Shown piece by piece: positions 5,781-40,026 of a stretch of 64,000 nt of DNA. The stretch lies in the NCBI GenBank assembly GCA_016200325.1, contig JACQEZ010000009.1, forward strand, positions 62,001 through 126,000. The letters are read 5' to 3'. A model generated the notes under the pieces. The model was not told where the DNA came from and made no database searches. It worked only from the letters and a program-made list of their open reading frames with translations. The DNA comes from Candidatus Manganitrophaceae bacterium (GTDB taxonomy: Bacteria; Nitrospirota; Nitrospiria; SBBL01; Manganitrophaceae). How positions within the stretch are numbered: the first letter of the stretch is position 1; each line of letters opens with the position of its first letter. Made by a program: the position numbers and the translations under genes.

Positions 5781-5783
5781 CCT

Positions 5784-9303: not shown

Positions 9304-9304
9304 G

Positions 9305-15286: not shown

Positions 15287-18200
15287 TCACACTTCTCCAG
15301 ATTCCAAAATCGAATAATAACTCGAGACTTTCATGTTTTCCACTGCCTTCTCGTGAATTTCTTCATCGATCATATTGATGAGCTCTTCTAAAGAAATTTC
15401 CGTTTTCCCTTCGACCTTATCGACGTACCACCGCATCGCCTCGTCAACAGATGTTTCGCAAAATTGGACCACCGTTTTTGAATTAAATGCCGGTTCGCTA
15501 TCAATATAGTGAAGGGTTTCCTCGTCTGAAAATATCTCAGGGAAGGATCGCTGATGGATCTGCTGGAAAAGAAAGCTGTTCAGCATCAAAGCCTTCCCTG
15601 CTTGGATATCCGGGAAACCGCCAAGTAACTCGGCCGCGACCACATCGAATACCTTCACCTGCTCCTTCAGCCGTGACAGATGCCGGAGAACAGGCGCCTC
15701 GGAAGATTTTTTCTGAAGACCTTCCATCCATCGATCAATCTCGCCAAGATGTTGAGGGTAAAGCGGCCGAAGGCGACCGGCCATTTGAATCCTCTCTTCC
15801 GCATTGTTCATCCCCTCAGCCATAAATCCATATTGAGCATTGAAAATATTAAACCCTTTGAGTATCGCCTTCGTCGTGACGACGAGCACCCGGCCCATCT
15901 TCTCCCCTAATCGATCAAATCCTTCGAGAATCCTATAACGCTCCTCTTTTTTAATCGTTCCGTTTATCGCGAACTCCGCCTCCGTCGCGGCGATTACGCT
16001 ACTTTGCGAAAATCGATAGTGACAGGCAATTAAAAGTGGGACCTCATGACGCCGAGCCAACTGCGCCATGCCCTTTGAGAAATTCTCAAAACTAGACGCC
16101 CGAGCGATCACTCGCCGAATGCGATCTCCATCTCCGGGTTCGATCTGGAGCGTTATTTTCTTACCCGAAAAGAGCGCGGAAAGACGACTGAGCACCTGAT
16201 CTGAAAACCGAAGCACTAATGGGAAATTGAGCGCCTCCGAGCCTTGAAAAATGAGCCCAAATTCGATGAGAGTTTGAGCCGAATCGATAAGGGCGGAGCC
16301 AATATCGTTAAGAAGGCGCCATAGTTCTGCTCGCTCGTATTCGGCGCGGCATCCGATCGCTCCTTGAATCATATCGTGAACCGATTGGAGAAAAGCGGGG
16401 TAGCGGACGAGGATCGACGGCCGGAAATGAATAAGACCGTCCTCGTCGGGTTTAAGTCCACCCAGGTCTTTCGCGAAGTTTCGGAGCAGCTGATCGCTTT
16501 TCTCAATTCGCGTCGTGAACCCTAACGCATCGCCGAGAGTTTCGATGATCGTCGTCCGTTTCTTTTCAATTTCCTCCCGAAGCCGATCTCGCTCGCGCGG
16601 TGTTATCTCCTGTGCGGGACGTTCGAGCAATTCGGCCAGCTCGAAGAATTTTATCGGGGTAAAGTATTGCGCTAAATCGTCAAAAAGTCGGGGCCCAAGA
16701 ATTCCTTCGCCTGACTGCTTTTCAAGGATTGCAAGAAGCTTTTTTCGTTCGGAAGGCTCGATGGCCAGATACGGAAAATGGTCGGTCTTATCGGTAATGC
16801 TGAATCCTTGATGAACTTTTCTGGTGACCTCCTCTTGTTTGTGGACCACAGCAAGACCTCGAACGGCGCCATAAGCGACTGCAAATTCCAACCTCAGTTT
16901 GGAAAACTCGTTCTCAATATCCGATTTTAGAAGCCACCATCCGGTCTGGTTAGCCCTTGCCTTGCGCACCAGGTTGGCGAACATCACTAAATTTAGAAAC
17001 TGCCTGATTTTCTCCAGTACCTCAAGCATCGTGACGCTCTCTATTAGGTTCGCCTTCAATTGCTTCGCATTGATTTGAAAATGGACGTCGGTTTCGGCGT
17101 TGAGCGCCCGGTCGTAGGTAATCGCGGAGGTCATTTCTTTCACAAGCAAGAGACATGGAATCAAACAGGAAAGCCTTCGCGATCCGGGATGATGAATCGA
17201 TTGTTTGAGCCCGGTGATGCCAGGGACCGGGTCCACCGCTGGCTGCGTGAATTGTAGATATCCGACACCGAGATGATTGAGGACATCTAGTAGCCCCACT
17301 TCAGTAGATTCCTCAACATCGATGGAGATCTTAAACAGACCCATATAATAAACCGCGTAATAGAACAACGCTAACACTGCTCCGGCGCAATCCGAGTAGT
17401 AGAGCGCCCGGAGCCGACGCTGTGATTCACTCGGTTTGTTCTCTCCATTTTTGTCCTCTTTCCCCTCGTCGAGAACGTTTCCGAAGAGTAGGACGCCGGT
17501 TCGGGAGCCTCCGTGTTTTAGGAGGGTAAGAAGCTGATCTAACGAAACGGGTCGGTCCGCCGTCGCCTCTCCCTGGAATTGTCGGAGGGACCGATCCATC
17601 CTCTCTGCGATTGCCGGATAACTATGCAGGAAGGAGGAGATATTGACGGCGTTCGTGTTAAGAAGATAAATAAAATCGCCTGTGTCGTTGTTTGTGGGCG
17701 TGGCAGAGAGCCGATAGTCCACCCAGAGCGCATGCCGCTTTTTTAGATGCGTATAGAGGAGCTCCATGGCATTGGAAATCCCGCTCTCGGTGTTCTTCAG
17801 AAAGCTGGATTCATCGGCCACGATGATAAACTCAAGACCGCGTTTAACGAGAATATCGAGTGGGTGGACAATCTGCCATTTCTCTTTCAAACCGAATTCG
17901 TGGCGACTTAAGACGACACAATCCCCTTCTTTGAGGGGCAGCGTGGAAAGATCTTTCATCTGGGTCATGTGGAGCGTGTCCTTTGAGACGCCGATATCGA
18001 TCATGGACTCGACGACGTTTTGCACAAGGTTCGCTTCAGTGAAATACAGCGTAACCAGTTTGGGACCGGGTTTTCCAGCTCTGATTGCTCGCCGGCCTAT
18101 GAGGTATGAAAATAGCCTGAGGAAGATCGGAGTGGTGTAGGTTTTGCCGGCGCCGACCTGACTGAAGTTGTTGAGCCGATATAGATCTTTCGGACACCGC

Positions 18201-19117
18201 CTCTCTTGAAGAAACGCCTCAAATGAGAGATAAGCATAAAAGAGCGCTTTCGTTTGCATCGAAGTAGGGGTTCCGTTCAACCCGGCAAGAAGGGAAGTGA
18301 GCAATTCGTTGAATTTTACATACTCGGGACGAAAGAATGAGGAATTGCCCGGAGGGACCAATTTACGTTCTATCGCCTTCACCTTCATTGAAATATAGTT
18401 GGATAGCGAGGGCCACGAGGCGATCGAGCAGACATAAATATTTTCACACAACGAAGCCATCCGCTCGAATTGCTGCAAGCTTCTCGTCAATTCCTTGCTC
18501 GCTCGCCCATTGTTTCTTGCGACCTCAAATATTTCGACGAGATCGCCTGGAGGGATCGCCTCCTCCTCTGCCAGCCGGCCGACCTCCGAAAGGAGCTCCC
18601 CCAGCTGGTTATTATCGATAGTCAGCGTGAATAACAGTTTAAAGAAATTATAATCTCGCTTATACCGGTTGATGATCGGTTCCTTCTTCGTTTCTTTACC
18701 ATTCTCGACCGCTGCATTTATGCATTCCTTCTCAGAGCGCAGATAGAGACGTTCAAGGTCCCGCAGCTTCCTCATCATCGTTTGGAGCGGTTGTATTTCC
18801 TCGTTCAGAGCAGCAATAAAACGCGACCGAAAGGAGTCTTGGTAAGGCAGCAAAAAGAGACCGGCCTCATGCGGCGCCGGCTGAATTGCTTTGAAAATCT
18901 TTTTATTTTTGACCGATGGAAAGAGCGCATCCATCTGGGGAGCCGGCGGGATTTCACCGCGAAGCAGTGGGTCAATGATCTGTTCGAAGTGGGGTATCTC
19001 ATCATAGACAAGTTCCGCCACGTCATCCGGAGAGCGCCGATGCCGTATGACCTTTTCGCGGAATGCCTTGAGGTCAACAACTTTTTTATGAATCGCCTCT
19101 CGCTTGCCGTCAATCAT
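15287..19117 (-). CDS. Very large SF2 helicase-like ATPase
   Basis: A 1276-residue SF2 helicase/translocase. Motif I is QVGAGKT near residue 325, motif II is VADESSFLKN (DESS rather than DEAD/DEAH), motif III is RLSATPTNN, and motif VI is QMAGRLRPLYP close to residue 1110. The 300 residues before motif I and the long middle insertion are not recognised. The RecA-like pair resembles helicases of large plasmids and phages that occur with N6-type methyltransferases, and such a methyltransferase lies at 30.4-33.0 kb. It is the last gene of the backbone block, downstream of the PRTRC cassette but behind a terminator, so it is probably its own unit. Confidence 0.8.
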   Translation of the reverse strand: MIDGKREAIHKKVVDLKAFREKVIRHRRSPDDVAELVYDEIPHFEQIIDPLLRGEIPPAPQMDALFPSVKNKKIFKAIQPAPHEAGLFLLPYQDSFRSRFIAALNEEIQPLQTMMRKLRDLERLYLRSEKECINAAVENGKETKKEPIINRYKRDYNFFKLLFTLTIDNNQLGELLSEVGRLAEEEAIPPGDLVEIFEVARNNGRASKELTRSLQQFERMASLCENIYVCSIASWPSLSNYISMKVKAIERKLVPPGNSSFFRPEYVKFNELLTSLLAGLNGTPTSMQTKALFYAYLSFEAFLQERRCPKDLYRLNNFSQVGAGKTYTTPIFLRLFSYLIGRRAIRAGKPGPKLVTLYFTEANLVQNVVESMIDIGVSKDTLHMTQMKDLSTLPLKEGDCVVLSRHEFGLKEKWQIVHPLDILVKRGLEFIIVADESSFLKNTESGISNAMELLYTHLKKRHALWVDYRLSATPTNNDTGDFIYLLNTNAVNISSFLHSYPAIAERMDRSLRQFQGEATADRPVSLDQLLTLLKHGGSRTGVLLFGNVLDEGKEDKNGENKPSESQRRLRALYYSDCAGAVLALFYYAVYYMGLFKISIDVEESTEVGLLDVLNHLGVGYLQFTQPAVDPVPGITGLKQSIHHPGSRRLSCLIPCLLLVKEMTSAITYDRALNAETDVHFQINAKQLKANLIESVTMLEVLEKIRQFLNLVMFANLVRKARANQTGWWLLKSDIENEFSKLRLEFAVAYGAVRGLAVVHKQEEVTRKVHQGFSITDKTDHFPYLAIEPSERKKLLAILEKQSGEGILGPRLFDDLAQYFTPIKFFELAELLERPAQEITPRERDRLREEIEKKRTTIIETLGDALGFTTRIEKSDQLLRNFAKDLGGLKPDEDGLIHFRPSILVRYPAFLQSVHDMIQGAIGCRAEYERAELWRLLNDIGSALIDSAQTLIEFGLIFQGSEALNFPLVLRFSDQVLSRLSALFSGKKITLQIEPGDGDRIRRVIARASSFENFSKGMAQLARRHEVPLLIACHYRFSQSSVIAATEAEFAINGTIKKEERYRILEGFDRLGEKMGRVLVVTTKAILKGFNIFNAQYGFMAEGMNNAEERIQMAGRLRPLYPQHLGEIDRWMEGLQKKSSEAPVLRHLSRLKEQVKVFDVVAAELLGGFPDIQAGKALMLNSFLFQQIHQRSFPEIFSDEETLHYIDSEPAFNSKTVVQFCETSVDEAMRWYVDKVEGKTEISLEELINMIDEEIHEKAVENMKVSSYYSILESGEV

Positions 19118-19203: not shown

Positions 19204-20007
19204 CTATCTTCTACCTTTCTTTGGTTGCTTTGGGCCGATCCGATATCCAAATCGTTTCCAGATTTCAGGATCGATCGGTAGAACCCGCGTGTTCCGCGGC
19301 TGCAGGCTCACATAAGAAACCGAGTAATCGATGTAGCCGCGGCGGAATGCGAACCATAGTAGCTGGCTCGCCTCCAACGCAACAAACTGGTTGATATAGA
19401 GATCTTGCTGCTCGATCGCTTCAGCAAGCGAACAAGAGGGCCCCGAATCTTTTTCACGTTTAGGATCCGCGATCTCCGGGTAGAGGTCTAAAACAGTTGG
19501 CAGGCGATCTATGGCGTCTTTGCGTTCGGGTTGATTGATCGCCCTGGGGGTTCCCAGAATGACCTGCCCGTTCTGTTGACTGTTTCCGCAATCGAGCCAA
19601 TAGACCAAATCGCGACCCGCACTCTGAAGGAAGTGACCGATCGTCACGCGGGCTTTCCCGGTGTCGACGGCCGTAATGACAAGGCTCGCTCTGTGATCAT
19701 GGCTTCCAGGATACCGCCGCGGCTCCGCCATCCATGAGAAGCCGGTACACTGATTAATTCGGGTGACCAGTATCGTCGCCTTTGGATGGCCCACATCTTC
19801 TCGATAAAAGAGCTGCCGGCCGACGTTTGCGTCTGTCACATAGTCGGGATCGTACACTGTGACTGAGATCCCGGGATGTCCCAGAGCGAGAAGAGTTTGG
19901 TTAAGGTAAACAAGCCTTCCGGCGACGGCGCTGCCGGTTCCTCCACAGCCGACCAGGTCGACTTCCACTGGGGAATGGGTGCTTGCCAGCGGGAAATAGT
20001 GGCGCAT
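19204..20007 (-). CDS. PRTRC system ThiF (E1-like adenylyltransferase)
   Basis: A 267-residue E1/ThiF-fold enzyme, expected to adenylate the C-terminus of a ubiquitin-like protein. The nucleotide-binding loop GCGGTGS is at residues 20-26, an acidic strand end reads VYDPDYV, and the Arg finger region is ANVGRQLFYREDVGHPKA. Cys192 in GPSCSLAEA is the likely thioester cysteine. It is the last gene of the cassette and overlaps the gene for protein A by one base (TAATG). Cognate partners here are the Ubl-like protein C, the E2-like protein B and the JAB protein A. The target of conjugation is unknown. Confidence 0.93.
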   Translation of the reverse strand: MRHYFPLASTHSPVEVDLVGCGGTGSAVAGRLVYLNQTLLALGHPGISVTVYDPDYVTDANVGRQLFYREDVGHPKATILVTRINQCTGFSWMAEPRRYPGSHDHRASLVITAVDTGKARVTIGHFLQSAGRDLVYWLDCGNSQQNGQVILGTPRAINQPERKDAIDRLPTVLDLYPEIADPKREKDSGPSCSLAEAIEQQDLYINQFVALEASQLLWFAFRRGYIDYSVSYVSLQPRNTRVLPIDPEIWKRFGYRIGPKQPKKGRR

Positions 20008-20639
20008 TAAGACCTCCTTTCTCCTCTTTCAAGAGAAACGTCTTCATCGAAGTAGAAAGAGGCAATACAGAGCCGCAGCTCGCAATCCAAATCGGCGCGA
20101 TTCATGCCGCGCTGACATTTGCCGAAGACCATTGAGAAGTGAGGATTTCCCTGGTCCGACCGTTCGTCTGTGGATGAGAAAAAGGCTGGGAGCCGGCCGT
20201 GGCTATGCAAATCAAGAATCAGATGCCACTCCGGTTCGAGCTGTGGCCATCGATACGAAACGCTTACCGCGCTCTGATCAAGAAATTCCAACTGGTGATA
20301 CTTCCAGCCGATCGTCGGATGCCAGATGATCCAAGCGGCCGTTTCGCAACCTCGTTCCGCTTCCTCGTTCGCCTGGAAAGCGAATTGATCGAGGTACCTC
20401 GTTGGGATCCTTCCGCATCGTAATGCGCCTATCTCCTCAATCAGGCCATACGGAAGGTCCCTCGGACTGTCCCAGAGCTGTTTTCTAAAATGCCCCCAGA
20501 TCGCGTCGGCCTCGATCCAGAGACCATCCTTCGCCATGAGCAACCTCGCGGTGCCCGGCGCGATCGGCGAGAGCGGTTCATAAATCGGGACAATCATCGT
20601 CGGTAATTGCCGTTGTAGAATGTCGTCTTTCTGATTCAC
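20007..20639 (-). CDS. PRTRC system protein A, JAB/JAMM peptidase-like
   Basis: A 210-residue protein of the PRTRC A family. The JAMM-type zinc motif is visible as DLHSHGRLPAFFSSTDERSD: His145, His147, the Ser before Asp158, and Asp158/Asp162. Such enzymes cut isopeptide bonds or the tail of ubiquitin-like precursors. The start overlaps protein B by 62 bp. Residues 11-30 (QLPTMIVPIYEPLSPIAPG) match the usual family opening, so the long overlap seems genuine. It probably works with ThiF, B and C. Confidence 0.9.
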   Translation of the reverse strand: MNQKDDILQRQLPTMIVPIYEPLSPIAPGTARLLMAKDGLWIEADAIWGHFRKQLWDSPRDLPYGLIEEIGALRCGRIPTRYLDQFAFQANEEAERGCETAAWIIWHPTIGWKYHQLEFLDQSAVSVSYRWPQLEPEWHLILDLHSHGRLPAFFSSTDERSDQGNPHFSMVFGKCQRGMNRADLDCELRLCIASFYFDEDVSLERGERRS

Positions 20640-21345
20640 CCAGACCGATCCTTTCCAGTAGCCCGCCGACGGTGAAACCCGCCGGCTTTAAGAGCTGATA
20701 GGGGAAGCGCTTTCGTTTTCCGGAAATGAGATCCCCCCAAAGCTGTCGCATCGTTCCTTTCTTCAAGACCGCCGTGTCCTCCGCGTTCGTATGGGTGAAC
20801 GCGCTTTGGTAGAAGGCGGTGGTCCAGCCCGGGATGGCGGCCGGCCAGCAATGATCGGGGATCTGACTCGAGCCGCAGCAGACTTCGTGCTGAGCGTTTA
20901 CGTTGTAGAAGGGACTCTTAAGAAGCGGGGTCTTCAACTCCGGTCTCCCGTCCCCTCCGGAAACGAAAACCAGAAGAGAATCCGGCCGAGCGACCAGAAT
21001 CAGGGAGGGCCACTCGACGACTCCGCTTTTGAGGTCCGCCGATTTACCGAAATACATCGGTTTGCGGACCGGAGGACACCAGAAGATCAATGGGCCGTCG
21101 ATGCCCCACCCATAGGCAAGAAGCGTGGGATCGACCCAACCGAGCCGCCGATTGATCACCGGAAGCATCGTCTGACAGAGCGCTTCTAAGGTTTTTCTCT
21201 TTACCGGTTCCCCCGCTTTTAGTTGCGGTATTCCCTTTTCGTCTATAAAAATGTTATGGATCTGCCAGTAGTCGATCGCCGGCGAATCGGGTTGATCCGC
21301 CGTGTAGTAGAGCAGAGCGATCTTTGGAATCAGCGGATTAACCAT
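20578..21345 (-). CDS. PRTRC system protein B, E2-like
   Basis: A 255-residue protein of the PRTRC B family, regarded in comparative genomics as a divergent E2 (ubiquitin-conjugating) fold. Family marks are YGWGIDGPLIFWCPP, YFGKSADLKSG and the segment NVNAQHEVCCGSSQIP, where Cys156 or Cys157 would be the thioester cysteine. The C-terminal third (WTTAFYQSAFTHTN onward) is the usual helical tail. It overlaps protein F by 8 bp and protein A by 62 bp, so the cassette is tightly coupled. Confidence 0.88.
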   Translation of the reverse strand: MVNPLIPKIALLYYTADQPDSPAIDYWQIHNIFIDEKGIPQLKAGEPVKRKTLEALCQTMLPVINRRLGWVDPTLLAYGWGIDGPLIFWCPPVRKPMYFGKSADLKSGVVEWPSLILVARPDSLLVFVSGGDGRPELKTPLLKSPFYNVNAQHEVCCGSSQIPDHCWPAAIPGWTTAFYQSAFTHTNAEDTAVLKKGTMRQLWGDLISGKRKRFPYQLLKPAGFTVGGLLERIGLGESERRHSTTAITDDDCPDL

Positions 21346-22423
21346 CCTTTTTCTCCTTTTCTTTTTCCGGCGGTCTGTCGAGGCCGCATGCCTTGACGTG
21401 CAAATCGTAGATTTCCCCCAACCTTTCGAGAGTAAAAAGAATCTCTTTTAAGTCCTCCGCGCTGGAAAGGCAGTAAGCCGCCGCTGATCGTCCATAATTA
21501 CAGAACTCGTTCTGCATCATTTCATCGAACGCGTCCATGATCGGATCCGTTGGGGACCAGAGGATCGGCATCAGGTAGTTGGGATCGACGTTCTCGGAAT
21601 CGAAGTCGCGAAATTCCAATTCATAAGAGACCGGAGCCTTCCAATCGGCGCTTCTCTTTTGCACCTCCTTCGACCACGACCACCATCCATGGAGCCAGGA
21701 GTTCTCAGGGGGCGCTTTCGGCGTGCGTGGAAATTCCGCCTTTTTCCCGTTGCGAAGAACGCTCCGGTACCGTTTTGGGATCCCTTCATTCAGCCATTTG
21801 ATTCTTTCCTGAAGTTCTTTCTCCACCTCCTGACCCTGCTCGTCATTGATCTCTTGTTCCAACCAGTCGAGGACTCGTTCTCTTTCGTCCTCATAGGTGT
21901 AGCAAGGCTTCGCCCATGTAAGGGTTCTCAGCGCCGCCAGGACAAAGGCCTCCAAACGGCGATCCTCTTTTCCGATTAGCTCGAGAATATCGCAGAAAAC
22001 AATTCCCACCTTCGCCGGATAGTCGACGACCAGGCAAACCTGAAGGCGGCCCGATACCGGATGCTGTTCAACGAGCATCTGGTGGCCGTACTTCCCAAAA
22101 CACCGCTCCGCCCTCTTCTCTAGAATCGCGCTGATCCAGCCGCTTAATTCCTCATGAATGATCTGGGATCCGGTCTTCTTCTCCCAGGGTCCGGGAATTC
22201 GCTCACCCGATTTTCCGATTGCGGGAAAAAACCAGAGGCCGATCTGAGCGAGCCTCATGTTGAGGATATCGGTCGCCATGTCCGGCAGCGTGACCAGGTG
22301 GCGAGGAAGTCGTGGAAGGGGGATTAGAGCAGGAGGGAGAGCCACTCTTTTCGGACCGAGACTACGGGTCCATTCATTTGCCGGCGCGCTCCGACGCATT
22401 GCGTGAGCGCCTCTTGAACCCAT
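21338..22423 (-). CDS. PRTRC system protein F
   Basis: A 361-residue protein assigned to the PRTRC F family by position between C and B and by its general character: a proline-rich start (VALPPALIPLPRLPRHLV), then a mixed alpha/beta domain with no catalytic motif I recognise. The GTG/ATG region at 22423 has AAAGGAGGTG 6 nt in front, which is a strong ribosome site; this site and the first 33 codons lie inside the 3' end of gene C. The C-terminus is Lys/Glu-rich. Function unknown, perhaps a scaffold of the Ubl system. Confidence 0.78.
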   Translation of the reverse strand: MGSRGAHAMRRSAPANEWTRSLGPKRVALPPALIPLPRLPRHLVTLPDMATDILNMRLAQIGLWFFPAIGKSGERIPGPWEKKTGSQIIHEELSGWISAILEKRAERCFGKYGHQMLVEQHPVSGRLQVCLVVDYPAKVGIVFCDILELIGKEDRRLEAFVLAALRTLTWAKPCYTYEDERERVLDWLEQEINDEQGQEVEKELQERIKWLNEGIPKRYRSVLRNGKKAEFPRTPKAPPENSWLHGWWSWSKEVQKRSADWKAPVSYELEFRDFDSENVDPNYLMPILWSPTDPIMDAFDEMMQNEFCNYGRSAAAYCLSSAEDLKEILFTLERLGEIYDLHVKACGLDRPPEKEKEKKDG

Positions 22424-22710
22424 ACGACACCTCCTTTCTTAAAGTACTCGTCTCCTTGTTTGGCCAGTTGTTGGACGGTAATAAAATCGGGGGGCGATTG
22501 CTCGCCCCCCTTGGTTCCCACGGCCCGGGTGAATTTATAAACCTCCTTTTCAGCCCGACGCTCCGGCTCCTCGATGACCGCCTGCGACAATTCAGGATAG
22601 GACGCCGCATAGAACTCCTTTACCTGCTCCGGTGTCATCGTGCTGTCGGGATCCTCGAGCTTAATTTGACCATGCATAAAGATCCGCTCAATCGGTTTCA
22701 CTTCTATCAT
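22324..22710 (-). CDS. PRTRC system protein C, ubiquitin-like, with long C-terminal tail
   Basis: A 128-residue protein. Residues 1-67 match the PRTRC C family (prokaryotic ubiquitin-like): RIFMHGQIKLEDP, MTPEQVKEFYAASYPELSQA and the end KEVYKFTRAVGTKG. Family members known to me stop there at about 70 residues with a C-terminal Gly. Here the frame continues as Gly68-Gly69 plus 59 more residues (EQSPPDFITVQQLAK...), overlapping protein F by 100 bp. This could be a precursor tail removed by the JAB protein A before ThiF activation. It follows protein E after 24 bp. Confidence 0.85.
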   Translation of the reverse strand: MIEVKPIERIFMHGQIKLEDPDSTMTPEQVKEFYAASYPELSQAVIEEPERRAEKEVYKFTRAVGTKGGEQSPPDFITVQQLAKQGDEYFKKGGVVWVQEALTQCVGARRQMNGPVVSVRKEWLSLLL

Positions 22711-22734
22711 CTGTTCTCCTCCAAATTGCTGCGG

Positions 22735-23262
22735 TTATTCGAACAAACTAAATCCCTGTTTCTTGCCCCCTTCGCTTTTTCCCTTTTCAACCTCTGAAAC
22801 GGTGACGGCGGCGGTCCCATCCGATTCACTTTCGTTTTTGTCATCGAGCTCTTCGGAACCCTCGTCGTCGGGGCTGTCGGTCACCGCGTTTCCCTCTGGG
22901 GCGCTGGAGGCCGTTGGATTGCCGCTCTGTTCCTTCTTTGCTGAGGTTTTACCGGATCCGGAAATCGCTTTGTCCACCGCTTTTCGCTTTTCAGACATCG
23001 CTCTGTAGAGTCGCCCATCCTCTTCGAAATTTTGCATCAGAATCCCCAGGAACTTTTCATTGAGTTCGTCCGCGGTTGCCTTGATGGCGATCGGCACCCG
23101 GGCCTGGTCATAGCGGACCTTTTCGGCGCCCGACAATCCATCCACCGAAGGAAAGACCGGGTGGACGAGGACCATGAGATGATCCAGTTGAATCTTCGAA
23201 ATGGTGAAGGTTATTTTCCCCTGAAGCGGAATCAGCTCCGCCAACTTGTTAAAATCGATCAT
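22735..23262 (-). CDS. PRTRC system protein E
   Basis: A 175-residue protein of the PRTRC E family. The folded N-terminal half (LIPLQGKITFTISKIQLDHLMVLVHPVF, then PIAIKATADELNEKFLGIL) matches the family pattern. The C-terminal 80 residues are acidic, Ser/Gly-rich and probably disordered (DDEGSEELDDKNESESD), ending in GFSLFE. The exact role is unknown; it is always found beside ParB and the Ubl genes. It lies 41 bp downstream of parB. Confidence 0.85.
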   Translation of the reverse strand: MIDFNKLAELIPLQGKITFTISKIQLDHLMVLVHPVFPSVDGLSGAEKVRYDQARVPIAIKATADELNEKFLGILMQNFEEDGRLYRAMSEKRKAVDKAISGSGKTSAKKEQSGNPTASSAPEGNAVTDSPDDEGSEELDDKNESESDGTAAVTVSEVEKGKSEGGKKQGFSLFE

Positions 23263-23303
23263 GGACTTCTCCTTAATTGAGGTTCAATTCTGCTATCGAG
23301 GAT

Positions 23304-25895
23304 CTAGGACACTTCCAGCGTCGTCTCGCGCTGGAGCCAGGCCGGCATCCGGTCCGCCTTAAAACCGGATGAGAGAAGGCCTTTGATGAACTCCTTTTTC
23401 GTCAGCGCGGCCAGCTTCGCAAGGGACTTTCCTTTTGCCTGAAGAAATCGATCGAGACCGATCTCTTTCGCCGTATCTTCAATCTCCCCTTTGGTCAGCA
23501 ACTCCAGATACTCTTTATCGACCGAGAACAGCGCTTCGGCCGAGAGATGAAGGTTGCCGTAGAGTAATTCTTCCTCTAGATGGAGGGTAAGGTGGCTGCA
23601 GACCGGCCGTGCGATCTCCCCCGCGATGGAGATCAGCTCCTCTCGCCCGGCTTTATGGATCAGCGGGTAGGCTTTATCGGTGGAATGATCGCTCCACTTC
23701 ACCGCGTCACTGAACGCTTTCAACTTCGGATTCTCCGACCAGGAGCGGCTCCACCTCGTATCGATCAACCCGAGAATCACAACGCGGACCAGATTTTCCG
23801 GAGTTTCCACGAGGTGTCGGGTCAGGTACTCGCGATATCGCCGCCGCTTCATCTCTTTGACCCGTTGCGGAGCGTTTTGAGGAATCAGTTTTTTCGGCCG
23901 TGACGGCGCCCCTCCGGTTGATTTTGATTTGCCGGCGCTTCCTTTTGCCCGACCGGTCTTTTTCGCATTCTTCGATTTTACGTCCGACTTTTCTTCTTTT
24001 TTATTGGCCTCCCGGAACCGGCTCGCGCAATCGTCATAGCACCCTTTATTTCCGCAGATTTTCTGCTGAAGGAGCCGTCCATTCTTCGAGACGAAGACCA
24101 CCAAGAACTTGCAAGACGCGCACTCCTTAATCTGCTCTTCTCCGATTTCGGCCCGGTTGTGAAGCACCGCCAATGAACGATCGACGTCGCTCGGAAGGTC
24201 TCCCAAACCGATCTGGACCGTTTCGGTTAAGACCGCCCTCGGACCGCTTTCCTCGATGAGCCGGACGAGGTCGTTGGCTTTTTCCTCTTCTTTTTTCCTC
24301 CAGCAAGGGGACTGAAGGCATTTTCCAAGCCCCGACGCCACCCGCTCAAACAGATCCGGTTGGCCGGCGCTGTTATGCGGACACTGGCGGCATTCCTCCG
24401 TATCGAACGGCGCCCGGGTGAGATCAAGATCGTTGTTCTCGCTCAAATAGTTTGAAAGCTGTCTTGTGTTAAGTTGCTCTGCCTCGACCTTTTCAAGAAG
24501 AAGCAGTTGTCGCTCTTGAGGAAGGCAAGCCAGGATTTTGGCGATCCCCACGTTCAGTTTCCCGGATCGGAGCTTTCCACGCACGTGACCATGAAGTGAC
24601 AAAAGCGAGAGGCGGTCCCGGATGTAGCTTTCGTCATGAAACACCCTTTCCGCGATCTCTTTAATCGAGCGGCTTTTCAGATCTTGCTCGAAATCCTCCG
24701 CCTCATCGATCGGGGAGAGGTTCTCTCTCTGTAGGTTCTCAGAGCGACGGATATCGCGAATTTGCTCAGGTGTGAGGTCGGTCTTAATAAACGCGGCAAT
24801 CGTATCGAGATTCAGCAGCTGGTGGGCTCGAAACCGGCGCTCGCCGTAGACCAGGTGGTAGGTTCCGTCCCCGATCGGGGCGACGGTGATCGGTCCCTGA
24901 AGCCCTCTCGCTTTGATATCGGCCGCCAGCCCCGCCAGCCGCTCCGGATCGATGTATTGTCGGGTGTTTTCAACCACCCGAATTGCATCCACCGGAACCA
25001 AGACGGCTTGATGAGCGGGACTCAGGGCGAGCGCTGCGCTCGCACTTGAATCGGCCTTCGGGGAGATCTCCAAGGCGCTGAGGACCTCCGCGGGATCCGG
25101 CAGGGGTTCCCAGTCCCGGACCCGAACTCCCAAAATGAACTTCGGACCGGTTAACTCCTTTCCGGTTTCTTTAGAATATCGTTGCCACACCGTTCCGGTC
25201 GGGGTATCCACCCCGGCCAGTCGATCCCACCGCTCTTGGGTCGGCTCCTTCCAATATGCAATCGCCAAATCTTCGAGCGTTGATTCAGGCGCATTTTCCG
25301 GTTCGAGACCGGCCCGCTCCCTCACGCGATTCCAGGAATTCGACGAAAGATCCTCCTCCTTAGAAAGCAGACCCTTCTTTATCCAATGCTCGGTAAGGAG
25401 ATCGGCAAGGGAGGTTTTGTTGATCGATCGGAGGTCCTGAATGGCCAGGACCGGATCGAAAACCTCTTCCCGGCCGATGTCCTTGTCGTAGACCTCGAGC
25501 GTATCGATCCATTTATAGTCATCCCCACTCTCCGGATAAGCGTCCCGATAGAGGGCCTTGAATTCGATTCCGACATCCTCGCAAAGCCTCTTCGCGATCA
25601 GATGAATCGGTCCGGTCGAATCGAAATCCCACCCCATCCCTTGTAAAAAGGGGCGAAGTGCCCATGAAAATGAGGCCGACGCCTCCGGATCCTCAGGAAC
25701 CTGAAAAAGAACATAGAAAGAGGTTTCTTCTGAGACCTCATTCCATTTCGCGGCGAGTTCGCCGATCTGAGCCCGAAGACCTACTTCGATAACCGATCCT
25801 TCCTCGATCTGATGGATGAACGGGAGGACCTTCTCCCAGCCGCCATCGATCGGCTCCCGGAAAACCGTTATATGTTTGGAAACACCTGATTTCAT
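23304..25895 (-). CDS. parB: PRTRC-type ParB with long N-terminal extension
   Basis: An 863-residue ParB-family protein, first gene of the PRTRC cassette. The ParB core begins near residue 300 (VPVDAIRVVENTRQYIDPERLAGLAADIKARGLQGPITV). The CTP/nuclease motif is GERRFRAHQLL and a second motif reads RRSENLQRENLSPIDEAEDF. A helix-turn-helix (SIKEIAERVFHDESYIRDRLSLLSL) follows. Two Cys clusters come later (CRQCPHNSAG...CLQSPCW and CASCKF...CGNKGCYDDC). The first 300 residues are an added region I do not recognise; usual PRTRC ParB proteins are nearer 550-600. No ParA is present in the window, so plasmid partition is not demonstrated. Confidence 0.92.
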   Translation of the reverse strand: MKSGVSKHITVFREPIDGGWEKVLPFIHQIEEGSVIEVGLRAQIGELAAKWNEVSEETSFYVLFQVPEDPEASASFSWALRPFLQGMGWDFDSTGPIHLIAKRLCEDVGIEFKALYRDAYPESGDDYKWIDTLEVYDKDIGREEVFDPVLAIQDLRSINKTSLADLLTEHWIKKGLLSKEEDLSSNSWNRVRERAGLEPENAPESTLEDLAIAYWKEPTQERWDRLAGVDTPTGTVWQRYSKETGKELTGPKFILGVRVRDWEPLPDPAEVLSALEISPKADSSASAALALSPAHQAVLVPVDAIRVVENTRQYIDPERLAGLAADIKARGLQGPITVAPIGDGTYHLVYGERRFRAHQLLNLDTIAAFIKTDLTPEQIRDIRRSENLQRENLSPIDEAEDFEQDLKSRSIKEIAERVFHDESYIRDRLSLLSLHGHVRGKLRSGKLNVGIAKILACLPQERQLLLLEKVEAEQLNTRQLSNYLSENNDLDLTRAPFDTEECRQCPHNSAGQPDLFERVASGLGKCLQSPCWRKKEEEKANDLVRLIEESGPRAVLTETVQIGLGDLPSDVDRSLAVLHNRAEIGEEQIKECASCKFLVVFVSKNGRLLQQKICGNKGCYDDCASRFREANKKEEKSDVKSKNAKKTGRAKGSAGKSKSTGGAPSRPKKLIPQNAPQRVKEMKRRRYREYLTRHLVETPENLVRVVILGLIDTRWSRSWSENPKLKAFSDAVKWSDHSTDKAYPLIHKAGREELISIAGEIARPVCSHLTLHLEEELLYGNLHLSAEALFSVDKEYLELLTKGEIEDTAKEIGLDRFLQAKGKSLAKLAALTKKEFIKGLLSSGFKADRMPAWLQRETTLEVS

Positions 25896-25946: not shown

Positions 25947-26687
25947 TTATTCGGCAGGGCGATCGAAGGCTTTTCCAACGGCCTGTAGCTCGCCCGCGCT
26001 TCCTACCCGCGAGTGCTTATGGAAGCGGCTTCCGGATATCCAAGCCTCCGCACGTTGAACCGCAAACGCGGGGGCCGGATTCGTTTGGACGGCCGTTCTG
26101 ATCACCCTGCTCCTGACCTCCGTCGCCGTGAAACTTCCGTTTTCGACGTGTGAAATAAGATAGTATTGCCCTTCCCTTTTCCTGGACCGGCTCTCCCCGG
26201 GCTTCCATACCTTGATCACCGCTTGCGCTCCGTCCCATCCATAAAAGTGGAAACGGTCAGAGTCCCTCTTGCCGTTCCCTTGGATCCCGGCGCCGGCGTT
26301 CGTGATGGAGTCGATGAAACGAATGAGTCGAAAAAGATGATGTTTTGTAATTTGAAACGCCGGCAGGTACAACGCGTTGGTAAAGAACCTTCTGATGAGG
26401 ATCGGACGCGGAAAATCATCCGTCTTCACCGTGATGATCAACTCCCCCAAAGCTCCCCTGACGGGGCTTATCTCAACGGTTAACGTCTGGAGGTCCAGAA
26501 TCCGCTTTTCAATCTTTTTTCTGTGAGAGGCCGCAGTCTTAGACGTCCGGAGTCGATGGTCATTTTGAGCGAGTAACTTCTCCCGTTTTTCATGCAACGA
26601 CAACAGGTTCATCGCTTTGATCCATCCCGGTTGACGGGCTTTCACGATGGCGCGCTTGGTCACAAGGAATTTCTCAAGAGAATTCAT
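25947..26687 (-). CDS. Unknown protein upstream of parB
   Basis: A 246-residue protein I do not recognise. The N-terminal third is basic and helical (KRAIVKARQPGWIKAMNLLSLHEKREKLL). The middle has a beta-rich domain (LQTLTVEISPVRGALGELIITVKTDDF), and later FHFYGWDGAQAVIKVW. The tail is basic. The start is the ATG at 26687 with AGGTGAACAA in front; a longer in-frame start lacks a ribosome site. It ends 51 bp before parB and starts 33 bp after the zinc-finger protein gene, so it probably shares their transcript. Confidence 0.7.
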   Translation of the reverse strand: MNSLEKFLVTKRAIVKARQPGWIKAMNLLSLHEKREKLLAQNDHRLRTSKTAASHRKKIEKRILDLQTLTVEISPVRGALGELIITVKTDDFPRPILIRRFFTNALYLPAFQITKHHLFRLIRFIDSITNAGAGIQGNGKRDSDRFHFYGWDGAQAVIKVWKPGESRSRKREGQYYLISHVENGSFTATEVRSRVIRTAVQTNPAPAFAVQRAEAWISGSRFHKHSRVGSAGELQAVGKAFDRPAE

Positions 26688-26719
26688 TTGTTCACCTACT
26701 TCTTTTGTTTGAACGCGAA

Positions 26720-27895
26720 TTATCTTTCCTCCGGATAACAAATGGTGACGATCCACCCTTCAGGGTGTCGCTCCGGGATTCCCCAGATTTCGCCTGTTTG
26801 ATCTTCGTACTTTATGATTCCGGAGATCCCCGCGCGAAAGCTCTTCGCGACTCGATGCACGATTCCAAGGAAGTTCGGGAGTTGTGAAACGCGGTTCGTA
26901 GCGACATACCGGGCTTCTCGCGGGGGAAGGGGATCGGTGATATACTTTCCGGGAATCGGGCACCGTTTCAAGCGAAGGAACCTCAACATGAACTCGACGC
27001 CCCAGTCCCCGCACTGGCCGCACCAAGCCATCCCCGATACTTCATCACAGGAATCCATGTAAGCTTTCGCCTCTTCGATCGTACTCGGATCTTTTTCATA
27101 GGCGTTGGCGCATTCCGGACAGACCGGGTGGTCGCAGCTCGGGCAGGTTATGACGTCCATTCGCGGCATCGCGCGTTCGAATTGAACCGGTTCCCCATGA
27201 ATGCCGCAGTAAAAACCTTTTACCGCGATCAGCGCCGACACCGCCTGGAATTCCAATTCCGTCGACTTCCCGTAGAGCTTTCGCATCCGCTCATCCACGC
27301 TCCCTTCCTGCTTATCTTTCGGCGGGGGGGATCCGGCGCCTCGCCCGCTCTCTCTCGAGAGAATATTCGCCCGTTCTGAGAGTCTTTTGATCTTTCGGGC
27401 CACGGCTGCGGGGATTTCGAGCGGATCCTTTGAATCGACAAACCTTCCCTTCTTATTGACGGGCGGATAGTGAATGAGATTGAAGAAAAGGGCGACCTGG
27501 GCGTCATTCTCCGTATCGAGATGCTCCCAGAGCAAGGGAAGATAAACACCCTTGGCGTTTTTTGTTTGAGTCGAGGTCAGCCAACCGATCTGTTCATCCG
27601 TGTAGGCCTGTCTGAGGTTCTCGTCCTCTTCCCCGGCAGTGTGTTCTTTTAACCAACCGTTAAGATCCTGAACCCCCGCCATCTTTTTCATCTCTTCCCA
27701 GGCGCTGGCCGATAAGTGGTCCGGGAGCCACTCAATGAGCGCGTTCCGTATCTCTCCTCCCACCTCGGTTTCCTTCAGGTAGTACTCGCGCTCCCGTTCG
27801 ATCAGCGCTTCGAAGTCTTTTTCTCGAAGCGCCTCATAAAGCGTTCCGCCCGTCTGGCCAGTCAATTCGTAAATAAACTTTACCTTCTCGCTCAT
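26720..27895 (-). CDS. Unknown zinc-binding protein of the element backbone
   Basis: A 391-residue protein, not recognised. The N-terminal half is acidic and helical. The C-terminal half has zinc-knuckle pairs CPSCDHPVCPEC and CGQC, plus an isolated Cys-Gly-Ile-His, which suggests a RING- or treble-clef-like zinc domain of about 100 residues. In a genome region that also encodes E1-, E2- and Ubl-like proteins a RING-like partner would be of interest, but spacing here is not that of a classical RING. The start at 27895 uses GGAG 9 nt upstream; it lies only 18 nt behind a strong hairpin. Confidence 0.72.
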   Translation of the reverse strand: MSEKVKFIYELTGQTGGTLYEALREKDFEALIEREREYYLKETEVGGEIRNALIEWLPDHLSASAWEEMKKMAGVQDLNGWLKEHTAGEEDENLRQAYTDEQIGWLTSTQTKNAKGVYLPLLWEHLDTENDAQVALFFNLIHYPPVNKKGRFVDSKDPLEIPAAVARKIKRLSERANILSRESGRGAGSPPPKDKQEGSVDERMRKLYGKSTELEFQAVSALIAVKGFYCGIHGEPVQFERAMPRMDVITCPSCDHPVCPECANAYEKDPSTIEEAKAYMDSCDEVSGMAWCGQCGDWGVEFMLRFLRLKRCPIPGKYITDPLPPREARYVATNRVSQLPNFLGIVHRVAKSFRAGISGIIKYEDQTGEIWGIPERHPEGWIVTICYPEER

Positions 27896-27913
27896 AGAAT
27901 CGATCTCCATAAA

Positions 27914-27951
27914 AAGAGGCCCTTTCCGGGTTTCAACGGAAAGGGCCTCTT
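27914..27951 (-). terminator. 15-bp perfect hairpin with U-run
   Basis: AAGAGGCCCTTTCCG pairs perfectly with CGGAAAGGGCCTCTT around an 8-nt loop, and the minus strand continues with TTTATGG. It lies between the histone-like gene and the zinc-protein gene. The start codon of the latter is only 18 nt further on. Confidence 0.75.
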
Positions 27952-27990
27952 CGGTTGCCCAATGCGATCAGCGCCTCGTTCTAACCCTGC

Positions 27991-28215
27991 TTACGCCGGC
28001 GCGGCTCTTCTCTTTTTTGTTTTCGATTTTTCGGGGTCAGTCGGCCGAAGCGCTAGGAAGATCTCCACCGATCGAACCGTTTTATACGGCTTCGAATAGC
28101 TCATCGCTTTCCGAAGAATCATCCGCGTCGCTTCCTCAAGGGCGGGAAGGGCCTCCTTCGAAATACGGAATTTTGAGGCATGAACGAACTCACGAACTTT
28201 CTTTTTTATCAGCAT
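27991..28215 (-). CDS. Small bacterial histone-fold protein
   Basis: A 74-residue basic protein whose layout matches a single histone fold: a short first helix (IKKKVREFVHA), loop 1 (SKFRIS), a long middle helix (KEALPALEEATRMILRKAMSYSK), loop 2 with the hallmark KTVRS (positions 45-49) and a last short helix (VEIFLAL). A basic tail (KSKTKKRRAAPA) follows. In archaeal and bacterial histones loop 2 reads R-K-T-V with the same spacing. It would bind and bend or coat DNA. It follows the preceding gene after 13 bp and precedes the zinc-protein and parB genes. Alternatives such as a DUF1931-like doublet are excluded by length. Confidence 0.72.
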   Translation of the reverse strand: MLIKKKVREFVHASKFRISKEALPALEEATRMILRKAMSYSKPYKTVRSVEIFLALRPTDPEKSKTKKRRAAPA

Positions 28216-28228
28216 TTCCGACCATCCC

Positions 28229-28498
28229 TCATTCCGCTGGAAACGTTATCTTTTTCTTTGGAGCTTCATGAGAATCGACGGCGATCTCCAGCGCAGGATC
28301 CGCCCCTCGATCCTCTCCCTGTCCGCAGAATGCACAGAAAAAGCGGTTAACGGACTGCGCCTCGCGGATCTCAGCGCTCTGGAGATTTAACCTCGTTCCA
28401 ACGTAGTTCTCTTTGCAGACCGGATCGCAGGCCCGAAATACGATGATCTCCGAACCGATTACCGGAATAACGACTTCGTGTGTGAAAATCTTTAACAT
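28229..28498 (-). CDS. Small unknown protein with two Cys pairs
   Basis: An 89-residue protein, not recognised. It has a beta-rich start (KIFTHEVVIPVIGSEIIVFRA), then CDPVCKEN and FCAFCGQG, which form a C-x3-C / C-x2-C zinc site, and an acidic C-terminus. I use the ATG at 28498; the frame is open to 28585 but that would include the hairpin at 28566-28600. It probably shares a transcript with the histone-fold gene 13 bp downstream. Confidence 0.62.
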   Translation of the reverse strand: MLKIFTHEVVIPVIGSEIIVFRACDPVCKENYVGTRLNLQSAEIREAQSVNRFFCAFCGQGEDRGADPALEIAVDSHEAPKKKITFPAE

Positions 28499-28565
28499 CG
28501 GTTTTATCTTTTCCAACAAAAGCTCCTCTCTCCATGACGGCCGAACTTCTCTTTCCAATAAGCAA

Positions 28566-28600
28566 AGGAGGCCCGCCACATACAATCGGCTGGGCCTCCT
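28566..28600 (-). terminator. Intergenic hairpin after the GHKL ATPase gene
   Basis: AGGAGGCCC pairs with GGGCCTCCT, extended by GCC/GGC with one bulge around a 10-nt loop. The minus strand continues TTTGCTTATT. It lies between the GHKL ATPase stop (28624) and the small Cys protein. Confidence 0.6.
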
Positions 28601-28623
28601 CTGTGTGCAACTGACTCTGGTTC

Positions 28624-35537: not shown

Positions 35538-36104
35538 TTATTTCTTTCCTCGGAACACCCACTCCATGATCCGCTCGGGGTCATAGATATCAATAGAGGA
35601 TCCCTGCTTTAGCCGATCCATCAGGATCCCAAGATTGCTTCGACTAGGATCAACACGCGAAGGGTAGACGATCGCCTCAAAGCGCCGGCTCGCCCGGATC
35701 AGACGGCCCAGCCGTTGTGTGATCGCCTCCTTTCCCAACACGTTCTGAGCGTGCCGCCATGGGGTGAGCAGATTCTCTGCGGTTATTCCCAAGCCTTCGC
35801 ACACTTCGGCCGACGTCAGATTGATTATGCTAGCAAGCCTCGCCTCGACCGTGAAGAGGATCGAAGGGGGAAATTTGACGGAGAAGCCCGGAAGGGATTC
35901 TTTAAGAGCCAAATCCGGCCCGGAGGCAAGATAGAGAACCTCGTGCTTGCCTTTTCGATTATAGCGGCCACCCGTCTTTTTTGATCCGAATGCTCCGAGG
36001 GGATCCTGTATAAAATCGACACGGACGATCCGGTAAAAAGCGCCGGAGAGAGGTTCGGGTGAAACCTGTCTTAGAAATTTTAGAACCCGATGCTCGGGTA
36101 GCAT
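35538..36104 (-). CDS. RES-domain toxin
   Basis: A 188-residue RES-family toxin; these degrade or modify NAD+ and arrest growth. Signature elements are FYRIVRVDFIQDPLGAFGSKKTGGRYNRKGKHEVLYLASGPDLALKES, which contains the G-R-Y-N core and the conserved Glu69. The start overlaps the stop of the upstream antitoxin gene (TGATG), the usual order for RES-Xre pairs. It should be neutralised by the protein encoded at 36104-36484. Confidence 0.9.
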   Translation of the reverse strand: MLPEHRVLKFLRQVSPEPLSGAFYRIVRVDFIQDPLGAFGSKKTGGRYNRKGKHEVLYLASGPDLALKESLPGFSVKFPPSILFTVEARLASIINLTSAEVCEGLGITAENLLTPWRHAQNVLGKEAITQRLGRLIRASRRFEAIVYPSRVDPSRSNLGILMDRLKQGSSIDIYDPERIMEWVFRGKK

Positions 36105-36484
36105 CAGCGAAGGGCCCCGGTCCTTATCTCATTGAGATAGTCAATGAGGGCCTGGGCCTTACCTTGGATGATGAGTTGTTTAGGGGTCAGTCCGGCGTAG
36201 TCAGGATTAGGAGCATTGAGCCAGAGTTGCGCTTCTTCCGCATTTTCAGTCAACTCATGCAGCAGGGTTAGGACTGCCACGATGTGGGTAAGCCGCTCTT
36301 GAATCGGGCGCGAACGCGGGTTCTTTTGAAGGGTGCGCAAATTCTTGCCGACCGCCTGGGCCATCTGTTCAACCGTAAGCCCCAACTCCTTTCTAAGATT
36401 ATCCAGATTGATCGAGCCGGTCGCATCATAGAGGCCTCGCTCGACATGCCTGAACAGCCTAAACTTAGCGGGAGCCGTAGCCAT
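36104..36484 (-). CDS. Xre/MbcA/ParS-type antitoxin of the RES pair
   Basis: A 126-residue antitoxin. Residues 30-65 contain the Xre-like helix-turn-helix (LDNLRKELGLTVEQMAQAVGKNLRTLQKNP). The C-terminal toxin-binding domain contains the typical LWLNAPNPDYAGLTPKQLIIQGKAQALIDYL. The ATG at 36484 has AGGAG 7 nt upstream; the in-frame extension to 36697 overlaps another gene and is rejected. The 143 bp between this start and the next upstream gene should contain the autoregulated promoter. Confidence 0.9.
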   Translation of the reverse strand: MATAPAKFRLFRHVERGLYDATGSINLDNLRKELGLTVEQMAQAVGKNLRTLQKNPRSRPIQERLTHIVAVLTLLHELTENAEEAQLWLNAPNPDYAGLTPKQLIIQGKAQALIDYLNEIRTGALR

Positions 36485-36627
36485 AGTAGTTCTCCTAGCA
36501 AATGGTTCGTTTAGATATTCATACCATAGTTCACCATTTTCGTCAATAGAAGGTTCATGCAATAATCTTCGGGTAATCGATACCCCCCTATGCGCGTTGA
36601 TCCTACAGAAATAAGCGGACATTTTTT

Positions 36628-37050
36628 CTACTTCATTATCGTCCCCCCGAAAAATTTCTTTGCTTGATGGACCTTCCTGAGATGCTCCTCTGTCCAACCT
36701 GCCTGCTTGATTCTGTAAATCTCCTCCGGAAGATATCCCACCTGGTTTTCAGGCAAGCGTTTCAAGGCGTGTTCGCTTCCGACAATCCAAACCGTGTCGC
36801 CTAAGACCTTGCTGTCGATCTTCACCTGAAGACTTTCCAGCTGGTCGAGGTAGATAAGCACCTCTTCTTGGTTTTGATCAATCCGGCTCCGCAGCTCCTC
36901 CGCCTCAGCTTTTCTTAAGTCGGCCGATTCCGGAGAAGCGCCCAAAAGGTCGGTCAGGATGATCTTATCCTCCAAAATCGAAGGACGAAAACCCTTTGTC
37001 CACGCCTCCGCCATCAGGGGATGAACCTTATTTAAAATCTCGATCTTCAT
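36628..37050 (-). CDS. Unknown backbone protein
   Basis: A 140-residue protein, not recognised. It is mainly helical with an acidic middle (ADLRKAEAEELRSRIDQNQEEVLIYLDQLESLQ, possibly a coiled coil). The C-terminus (VGYLPEEIYRIKQAGWTEEHLRKVHQAKKFFGGTI) has the look of a small helical plasmid protein. The ATG at 37050 is chosen because GGGAG lies 7 nt upstream. It follows the UvrD gene after 38 bp. Confidence 0.7.
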   Translation of the reverse strand: MKIEILNKVHPLMAEAWTKGFRPSILEDKIILTDLLGASPESADLRKAEAEELRSRIDQNQEEVLIYLDQLESLQVKIDSKVLGDTVWIVGSEHALKRLPENQVGYLPEEIYRIKQAGWTEEHLRKVHQAKKFFGGTIMK

Positions 37051-37088: not shown

Positions 37089-38969
37089 TTATTTCGGCTT
37101 GATCTTCGGGTTGATGATTCTCCCCATCTCGTGGATAAAATATGACGGTTCCCTCACCTCGTTTTGCACATACCGGGAATGGGTGATGTAGACCCGATCT
37201 TTGGCCCGCGTGATGCCGACATACATCAGGCGTCTCTCTTCTTCGATGCTCCCTTTCACATGAGGCAAGGTTCCCTGAAGGGCGCCGATCACAAACACGA
37301 CACGAAACTCCAATCCTTTTGCGCCATGCAATGTAATCAGTCTGATGCCTTTTTTCTCCTTTGGCACCCCACCCTGGATCGCCGAGATCGCCATCTCGTT
37401 TAGGAAATTGATCAGATTCGGGCCGGCGCTCAGCTCGAATTGGTCGGCCATCTGAGCGAGTTCCTTTAAATACCCAATCCTCTTATTGACGTCCTCCTTT
37501 CCTTTACAAAATTTCTGAAGGTGGGCGACATAACCGAATTCGACCGCGGCGGCCCGCATGAGATCCGAAATACAGAGGTCGGCCATTCTGTTTCTCAGCC
37601 GATCCAAACGCTCGAAGAGCCGAACGAGCCCTTCTCTCGCCTCTCCTTGGACATATTCATTCTCGACCGCCATTTCAGCCGCATGATTCAGGGAAACTCC
37701 CTCCCGCTCCGCCAGGTCCTCCAAGAGATCGGCAACCCGGGCGCTGACCCCAGACTCCAACTTGAGTAAGCGCTCATACGCCGATGTGTTTTCCGGAAGG
37801 GCGACCGCGGTGATCAGGGCCAGCATATCTCGGACCTCCCGATGATCGTAGAAGGAGCGGTCTCCCGCTTTGCGGCAGGGAATACCCAGGCGATTTAAAG
37901 CCCCTTCCGCCTGGGCCAGCTGAACATGACGCCGGGCAAGAATCGCGATCTCTTCGGGAGGAATGCCCCGTTGAAGATGCGCCTGAATTTCCCGCGCGAC
38001 GAACTCTCCCTCTTCGGTCTCCGACCCAAACCCTCTAATTTCGATGGTCCCTTCTTCTTCCCTGACAGAGGAAAGCTCTTTTTGAAACCGTGTAAAGTTG
38101 TTCTTGATCAACGCCGCCGCCGCGGTCACGACCAACCTCGGAAGACGGAAGGTTGCATTCAGCGTGATGATTTTCGGAGAGAAATCGGCGACAAAATGTT
38201 TTAGGACGTCCGGGGTGGCCGATCTGAATGAATAAATCGACTGGTCGTCGTCTCCCACAACTACGATCCCCCGGTCCTTTCCCAGAAGGGAGATCAGATG
38301 GTACTGCGCGAGGTCGACGTCCTGAACTTCATCCACGATCAGATGATTCCAGAGCGCGCGGACCTCGCCCAATATCGCCGCATCCTCGGTAAAGAGCCGA
38401 AGGGTGAGGTAGATTAAATCATTGAAGTCGATGCATCCTTGAAGACGCATCCGCTCCTGATAGAGGTTGAATATTTCGACGAAATCGCTTTTCTCCTGAG
38501 CCAGGCCTTCTGAAGAACTAAATTGAGCCTTTACCCGGCCGATCCGGCCGCCGAGTTCGGTCAGATCCAAAGCGGCCTCATTCAGACCGAGTTGCCGAAT
38601 GGTGTCTTTGAGAATTTTGTTTGACTGCTCGGTGGAAGCGATGTTGAACGCCCCGCTGTATCCTGCGAGCTTGTGAATATGCATTCTCAGAATCTGCGCG
38701 CAGGCGCCGTGGATTGTTCGGATCCAAGAGAGACGTTTGCCGCTCAAGAAGAGAATTCGGTCCCGCATCTCTTGGGCTCCCCGGTTGGTGAAGGTAATGC
38801 CGAGAATCTTTTCAGGATCCTCGCCCTCCTGTACCAGTGCTGCGATCCGGGTCGCGATCGTATGGGTCTTCCCCGTTCCCGGGCCGGCGAGCACCAAAAG
38901 CGGACAGCCTCGAGAAAGCGCGGCCTCTTTCTGCTCAGGGTTGAGTCGTTCCAGATTGAGCGCTTCCAA
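37089..38969 (-). CDS. UvrD/PcrA-family SF1 helicase
   Basis: A 626-residue 3'-5' DNA helicase. Motifs: LAGPGTGKTHTIATRIA (Walker A), GITFTNRGAQEMRDR (Ia), HLIVDEVQDVDLAQY (II), VVGDDDQSIYSFRSA (III), LNATFRLP (IV), LITLHGAKGLEFRVVFV (V) and YVGITRAKDRVYI (VI). It is slightly shorter than chromosomal UvrD. The start is a TTG at 38969 with GGGGGG in front, inside the 3' end of the primase gene (35-bp overlap), so both are coupled. It probably serves replication or repair of the element. Confidence 0.93.
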   Translation of the reverse strand: MEALNLERLNPEQKEAALSRGCPLLVLAGPGTGKTHTIATRIAALVQEGEDPEKILGITFTNRGAQEMRDRILFLSGKRLSWIRTIHGACAQILRMHIHKLAGYSGAFNIASTEQSNKILKDTIRQLGLNEAALDLTELGGRIGRVKAQFSSSEGLAQEKSDFVEIFNLYQERMRLQGCIDFNDLIYLTLRLFTEDAAILGEVRALWNHLIVDEVQDVDLAQYHLISLLGKDRGIVVVGDDDQSIYSFRSATPDVLKHFVADFSPKIITLNATFRLPRLVVTAAAALIKNNFTRFQKELSSVREEEGTIEIRGFGSETEEGEFVAREIQAHLQRGIPPEEIAILARRHVQLAQAEGALNRLGIPCRKAGDRSFYDHREVRDMLALITAVALPENTSAYERLLKLESGVSARVADLLEDLAEREGVSLNHAAEMAVENEYVQGEAREGLVRLFERLDRLRNRMADLCISDLMRAAAVEFGYVAHLQKFCKGKEDVNKRIGYLKELAQMADQFELSAGPNLINFLNEMAISAIQGGVPKEKKGIRLITLHGAKGLEFRVVFVIGALQGTLPHVKGSIEEERRLMYVGITRAKDRVYITHSRYVQNEVREPSYFIHEMGRIINPKIKPK

Positions 38970-39963: not shown

Positions 39964-39975
39964 ATGAACCTCCCG

Positions 39976-40010
39976 GAGGCAGGCCCTTGCGAAAGGCAAG
40001 GACCTACCTC
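39976..40010 (-). other. Hairpin abutting the primase ribosome site
   Basis: GAGG-CAGG-CCTTGC pairs with GCAAGG-CCTA-CCTC around a short loop. On the minus strand it runs directly into CGGGAGG, the ribosome site of the primase gene, with no U-run. It could control translation rather than end transcription. Confidence 0.5.
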
Positions 40011-40026
40011 TCTGAATGATTTCAAT

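Follow-up and report, generated by a model that had tools for sequence, protein, structure and literature searches.

A histone-like protein encoded by conjugative elements of Candidatus Manganitrophaceae

Histones have only recently been recognised in bacteria, where they have so far been studied as proteins of the chromosome. Can a bacterial mobile element also encode a histone of its own? This question is raised by a 74-residue ORF of a Candidatus Manganitrophaceae (Nitrospirota) genome, which an earlier note read as a histone-fold protein encoded by a mobile element and lying next to parB. We analysed a window of 64,000 nucleotides of contig JACQEZ010000009.1 (C9:62001-126000), in which the ORF lies at C9:90 kb. 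The features of the locus are collected in Table 1.

Table 1. Features of the histone-like gene, its surroundings and related loci. Positions are those of the window unless a contig (C9, C20) is named.
Feature	Position	Strand	Remarks
Element histone ORF	27991..28215	-	74 aa; MLIKKKVREFVHASKFRISKEALPALEEATRMILRKAMSYSKPYKTVRSVEIFLALRPTDPEKSKTKKRRAAPA
Parts of the element histone	residues 2-74		alpha1 ~2-14, alpha2 ~20-40, L2 with K45-T46, alpha3 ~47-56, basic tail 57-74
Probable terminator just 3' of the histone gene	27911..27953	-	strong hairpin then U-run, 16-bp stem
Gene upstream of the histone gene	28229..28585	-	118 aa from TTG (shorter start possible); matches no known family
Probable terminator after the preceding 550-aa gene	28565..28602	-	strong hairpin
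396-aa protein	26720..27910	-	matches no known family; in the conserved core of these elements
ORF between 396-aa gene and ParB gene	25947-26756
PRTRC cassette, whole	19204-25895	-	ParB, E, C, B, A, ThiF; common across the genus
PRTRC-type ParB	23304..25895	-	863 aa; below curated cut-off of PRTRC_parB model
PRTRC protein E	22735..23262	-	below curated cut-off
PRTRC protein C	22324..22710	-	ubiquitin-like family
PRTRC protein B	20578..21345	-	E2-like
PRTRC protein A	20007..20639	-
PRTRC ThiF	19204..20007	-	E1-like
Helicase-like gene	15287-19117		1276 aa; comes after the PRTRC cassette
Metal-efflux cargo	2450-11793	-	two cation diffusion facilitators and a three-gene RND-type (AcrB-family/HlyD/OEP) system
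Toxin-antitoxin pair	35538-36697	-	RES-domain gene and Xre/MbcA-type antitoxin; element replication/repair region
UvrD helicase, DnaG-like toprim primase, Gp3-like protein	37089-41574	-	in a row
PLD-fold protein	43142-44305	+	weak match to DrmC and restriction endonuclease models; possible defence gene
Tyrosine integrase	C9:100-1302
F-type T4SS genes TraG, TraH, TraU, TraN, TrbI, TraK, TraD	C9:4-28 kb
HBb-type histone of the window genome	G000:C20:76693-76788	-	on a separate contig from the element

The ORF is a real gene and not a chance reading frame, and it is conserved across three further genomes of its genus. The copy in one of these (G001, also L002/L016) is 96% identical to that of the window; among the 71 codons compared, 5 differ synonymously and 3 non-synonymously. 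Farther copies with the same core are found in G002 (two) and G003 (one), and align with the window copy at 34-45% identity. Invariant positions include R17, S19, LPAL at 23-26 (counted without the varied positions around it), I33, L34, A37, Y40, P43, K45-T46 and E51-I52. The protein has a computed pI of 10.7 and a charge of +12.6. The basic tail after alpha3 comprises 18 residues in the window copy; tails vary between copies and one is short. The stop codon of the upstream 118-aa gene lies 13 bases before the histone ATG, and therefore the two genes probably form one bicistronic unit. A consensus terminator scanner reported neither of the hairpins in Table 1, whereas folding found both to be strong: the one after the histone gene has a dG of -32 (z -4.65) over the full 71-nt stretch and the one after the 550-aa gene a dG of -27.3 (z -3.8) over 61 nt. 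As these hairpins bracket the pair in the window, the pair may be a transcription unit of its own.

A profile of the five element copies, hereafter the genus profile, was searched against 177,635 PDB sequences. The best two matches were HTkC (9F2C, E 0.003), a face-to-face alpha3 histone (PMC11390915), and HLp (9QT0, E 0.013), likewise a face-to-face alpha3 histone (PMC12701072), and the sole further match, at E 4.8, was to a designed repeat protein. Thus at E < 1 only histones were recovered. The single sequence also returned 9F2C first (E 0.057). Another PDB search, made with alignment A3, was discounted for circularity because A3 includes archaeal HMfB and the host histones. Outside the genus, the best match in 395 genomes of the phylum was a 60-aa chromosomal histone (G028) ending in RKTVKARDVV, with an E value of 4.2e-5 for one genome and ~0.02 for the whole 395-genome scan. 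Weaker, short matches in the phylum (L020-L022, E 0.0025-0.0095) were ignored, being about the number expected by chance for 395 genomes. Profile-profile comparison (hhalign) of the element copies with 13 chromosomal histones scored 32.0, compared with 20.2 for the best of 300 column shuffles. Moreover, the genus profile placed four Nitrospirota chromosomal histones and HMfB above the contig's 2,109 other stop-to-stop segments and, in reverse, a profile of host histones ranked the element ORF first of 2,110. Pfam and PHROGs scans of the 74-aa protein gave no family over the cut-off. Taken together, the PDB, chromosomal and profile-profile matches establish homology to proven histones and back the histone fold that the earlier note had proposed.

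That note had also recognised a short-long-short pattern of three helices, which was reproduced at the level of predicted secondary structure in two AlphaFold2 runs (H2-14/H22-40/H47-56 and H2-14/H20-40/H48-56), which used a 3-row alignment or the single sequence. Confidence in both models was low (mean pLDDT 66.6 and 68.3, pTM 0.40), with a pLDDT of 70-87 across the first 40 residues and lower values in helix 3. In these models alpha3 spans 9-10 residues (47/48-56, pLDDT ~53-64), compared with the 3-4 residues by which alpha3 histones are defined. Foldseek/VIA searches with the low-confidence monomer models gave no clear histone and no convincing solved fold; the matches returned (GatC, PKMT1, a SAGA subunit and CAL1/CENP-A-H4, Z 2-4, up to 4.3) are uninterpretable. 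Since a fold prediction of such low confidence settles nothing, we infer the handshake dimer from homology.

The host has a histone of its own. PF00808 matches at E <= 0.1 were found in 16 of 21 genomes (that of the window and its relatives); on reading, most are short HBb-type proteins of ~60 aa, and at least one, a 488-aa frame (L036), is unrelated. The copy in the window genome lies apart from the element (Table 1) and matches Bdellovibrio HBb at 2.5e-18. Most Nitrospiria genomes of the 21 searched (L025-L038) have a chromosomal histone of this ~60-aa HBb type with the motif RKTVKxRDL, which indicates that such histones are widespread in Nitrospirota. Two key papers on bacterial histones make no mention of this phylum in their main text, and our literature search returned no description of histones from Nitrospirota or from bacterial conjugative elements, which does not prove that none exists. 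One alternative is that the element protein acts on the host histone, forming heterodimers with the HBb-type protein and either recruiting it to the element or poisoning it. HBb-type histones also occur in both near-complete genomes that carry intact element copies (G000 on C20, G002 on C3), and the element copy has lost the arginine-aspartate (RD) clamp of loop 2 (L2), as a partner or inhibitor might. However, it retains a basic alpha1 and the KT loop, as expected of a DNA binder, and we consider this alternative unlikely.

The mobile element itself is borne out by the contig, on which the histone gene is linked to a tyrosine integrase and F-type T4SS genes, as in an integrative conjugative element. 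Each of the six genomes of the genus has PRTRC-type ParB genes, and the order of the cassette was read out in five other regions or genomes. In G002 C1, G002 C7, G004 and G005, the PRTRC cassette has a TraU gene at a distance of 26-60 kb. The histone gene is present in 4/7 PRTRC modules and at one other T4SS-linked locus, giving five copies in three insertion places. In the window and G001, the histone and 118-aa genes are flanked by the 396-aa gene and a 550-aa ATPase-like gene, which in G005, G004 and G002 C7 are separated by a gap of ~100-180 bp. In G002 C1 and G003 C387 the histone gene sits directly between the ParB and PRTRC_E genes, which are ~60 bp apart in G005. The fifth copy (G002 C4) differs in its surrounding gene order and has a TraU gene at a distance of 26 kb; no PRTRC ParB was found at that locus. 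Near this copy is also a RadC/UvrD pair that resembles the UvrD, primase and Gp3-like row of the window (Table 1). The adjacency to parB claimed in the earlier note thus holds for two related elements but not for the window, where two ORFs intervene and where the parB in question is a member of the PRTRC cassette.

In the searched set, the element histone occurs only near F-type T4SS conjugation genes, mostly within the PRTRC cassette. Because three of the seven cassettes are without it and one copy, in the draft assembly of G003 (C387, L017 8162-8384), is frameshifted, the gene is dispensable. Core genes of the G004 C2 cassette (L063) are likewise split, and assembly error or decay may account for both. 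No relative was found in viral contigs by protein, profile and motif scans, nor by tblastn against plasmids and phages, and strict patterns found no copy outside the genus in 84,980 species genomes. The histone gene is an accessory gene of a conjugative element family in Candidatus Manganitrophaceae. Its placement bears on a second alternative, in which the protein would assist the PRTRC/ParB partition cassette as a DNA-architecture factor, bending DNA at the element centromere. The two copies wedged between ParB and PRTRC_E, and the membership of the window copy in the same module, are in line with this. The cassettes that lack the gene, its shifting position and the copy on G002 C4 argue against it, and we rate it slightly below the action on a host histone. 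Least probable is a chance resemblance between histones and some other small helical protein (a helix-loop-helix, GatC-like or small transcription factor), as although the low-confidence models found the N-terminal helices of GatC among their best matches (Z 3.3-4.1) and no clear histone, the PDB profile search recovered no GatC, hmmscan shows no GatC family, and histones, HMfB included, outrank all controls.

The explanation that we favour, and consider probable, is a histone-fold protein that diverged from the alpha3 histones (face-to-face or bacterial-dimer) and serves conjugative elements as an accessory nucleoid protein. DNA binding is predicted from its charge and homology. The protein most likely forms a homodimer that, like other histones, would touch the DNA backbone through its lysine-rich alpha1 (KKKVREF) and the Lys-Thr of L2, with the basic C-terminal tail aiding contact. 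Binding would be without sequence specificity and would bend or coat the DNA. As a nucleoid protein encoded by the element, it may shape or silence element DNA after transfer, a role that would be comparable to that of plasmid-borne H-NS-type proteins. On this view, the element would come with a DNA-packaging protein of its own. More tentatively, and at somewhat less than even chances, we propose that there is a separate histone subfamily for bacterial conjugative elements, marked by the L2 motif Y-[ST]-[KR]-P-x-K-T and the loss of the RD clamp, which is spreading through the PRTRC-type elements of manganese-oxidising Nitrospirota and provides an element on arrival with a chromatin distinct from that of the HBb-type host histone. 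A divergent histone limited, within the searched set, to conjugative elements of a host with another histone on its chromosome would show that bacterial histones can do for mobile DNA what H-NS-like proteins do for plasmids. It can then be tested whether an element histone coats the element, silences it or disturbs host chromatin.

How does the protein compare with the known histone classes? In alignment, alpha2 of HMfB needs a 4-residue insertion relative to the element protein and the host histones, and thus the protein shares the short alpha2 of the alpha3 class, a class in which this helix is 4-5 residues shorter than in nucleosomal histones. Face-to-face histones are defined by the L2 motif RxTxxxxD together with an arginine and an asparagine (R48 and N52) for the dimer-dimer contact (PMC11390915). 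The element copies instead have the conserved loop Y[ST][KR]PxKT; T46 is kept, while the arginine is replaced by Y44 (A or Q in relatives) and the aspartate by E51 (also E in relatives). Counted from the L2 threonine, R48 and N52 (profile numbering) correspond to M38 (M or I) and K42 (K or R). With the RD clamp replaced and the tetramer residues absent, the known alpha3 oligomer may not form. HTkC and HLp are the sole related PDB sequences by the genus profile; the alignment of that search covers alpha1, the loop-1 serine and alpha2, and the KT of L2 is common to them and the element protein. The element protein differs from them in having neither the clamp nor the dimer-dimer residues, in its L2 proline, and in a tail that is C-terminal rather than N-terminal.

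The element protein shares a short alpha2 and basic character with HBb (Bd0055) of Bdellovibrio and the HBb-type host histones, and the host copies belong to the same fold class by profile-profile comparison. Of the bacterial-dimer motif RKTxxxxD, it has K45-T46, along with basic alpha1 residues, but neither the R nor the D, and its identity to Nitrospirota chromosomal histones is 19-30%. Unlike the HBb type, it ends in an extended EI(F/L)(L/M)A segment followed by the tail, and is element-borne and patchy in distribution. Histones on mobile DNA have precedents in phages and on halobacterial plasmids (PMC11390915). As with the phage histones, the element protein is carried on mobile DNA, has no RxTxxxxD and has a conserved L2 lysine; however, the carrier is a different one, no phage or viral sequence matched, and the residues after alpha3 are predicted to lack the long helix of the phage-type C-terminal tetramerisation domain. 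As with the face-to-face histones of halobacterial plasmids, a mobile replicon carries a histone in addition to that of the chromosome, but those are archaeal and face-to-face, whereas here a divergent type is carried by a bacterial conjugative element in a host with an HBb-type histone. We therefore file the element protein as a divergent alpha3-like histone rather than a face-to-face, bacterial-dimer or phage histone, and by analogy the DNA-bending dimer of HBb/Bd0055 would be its nearest functional model.
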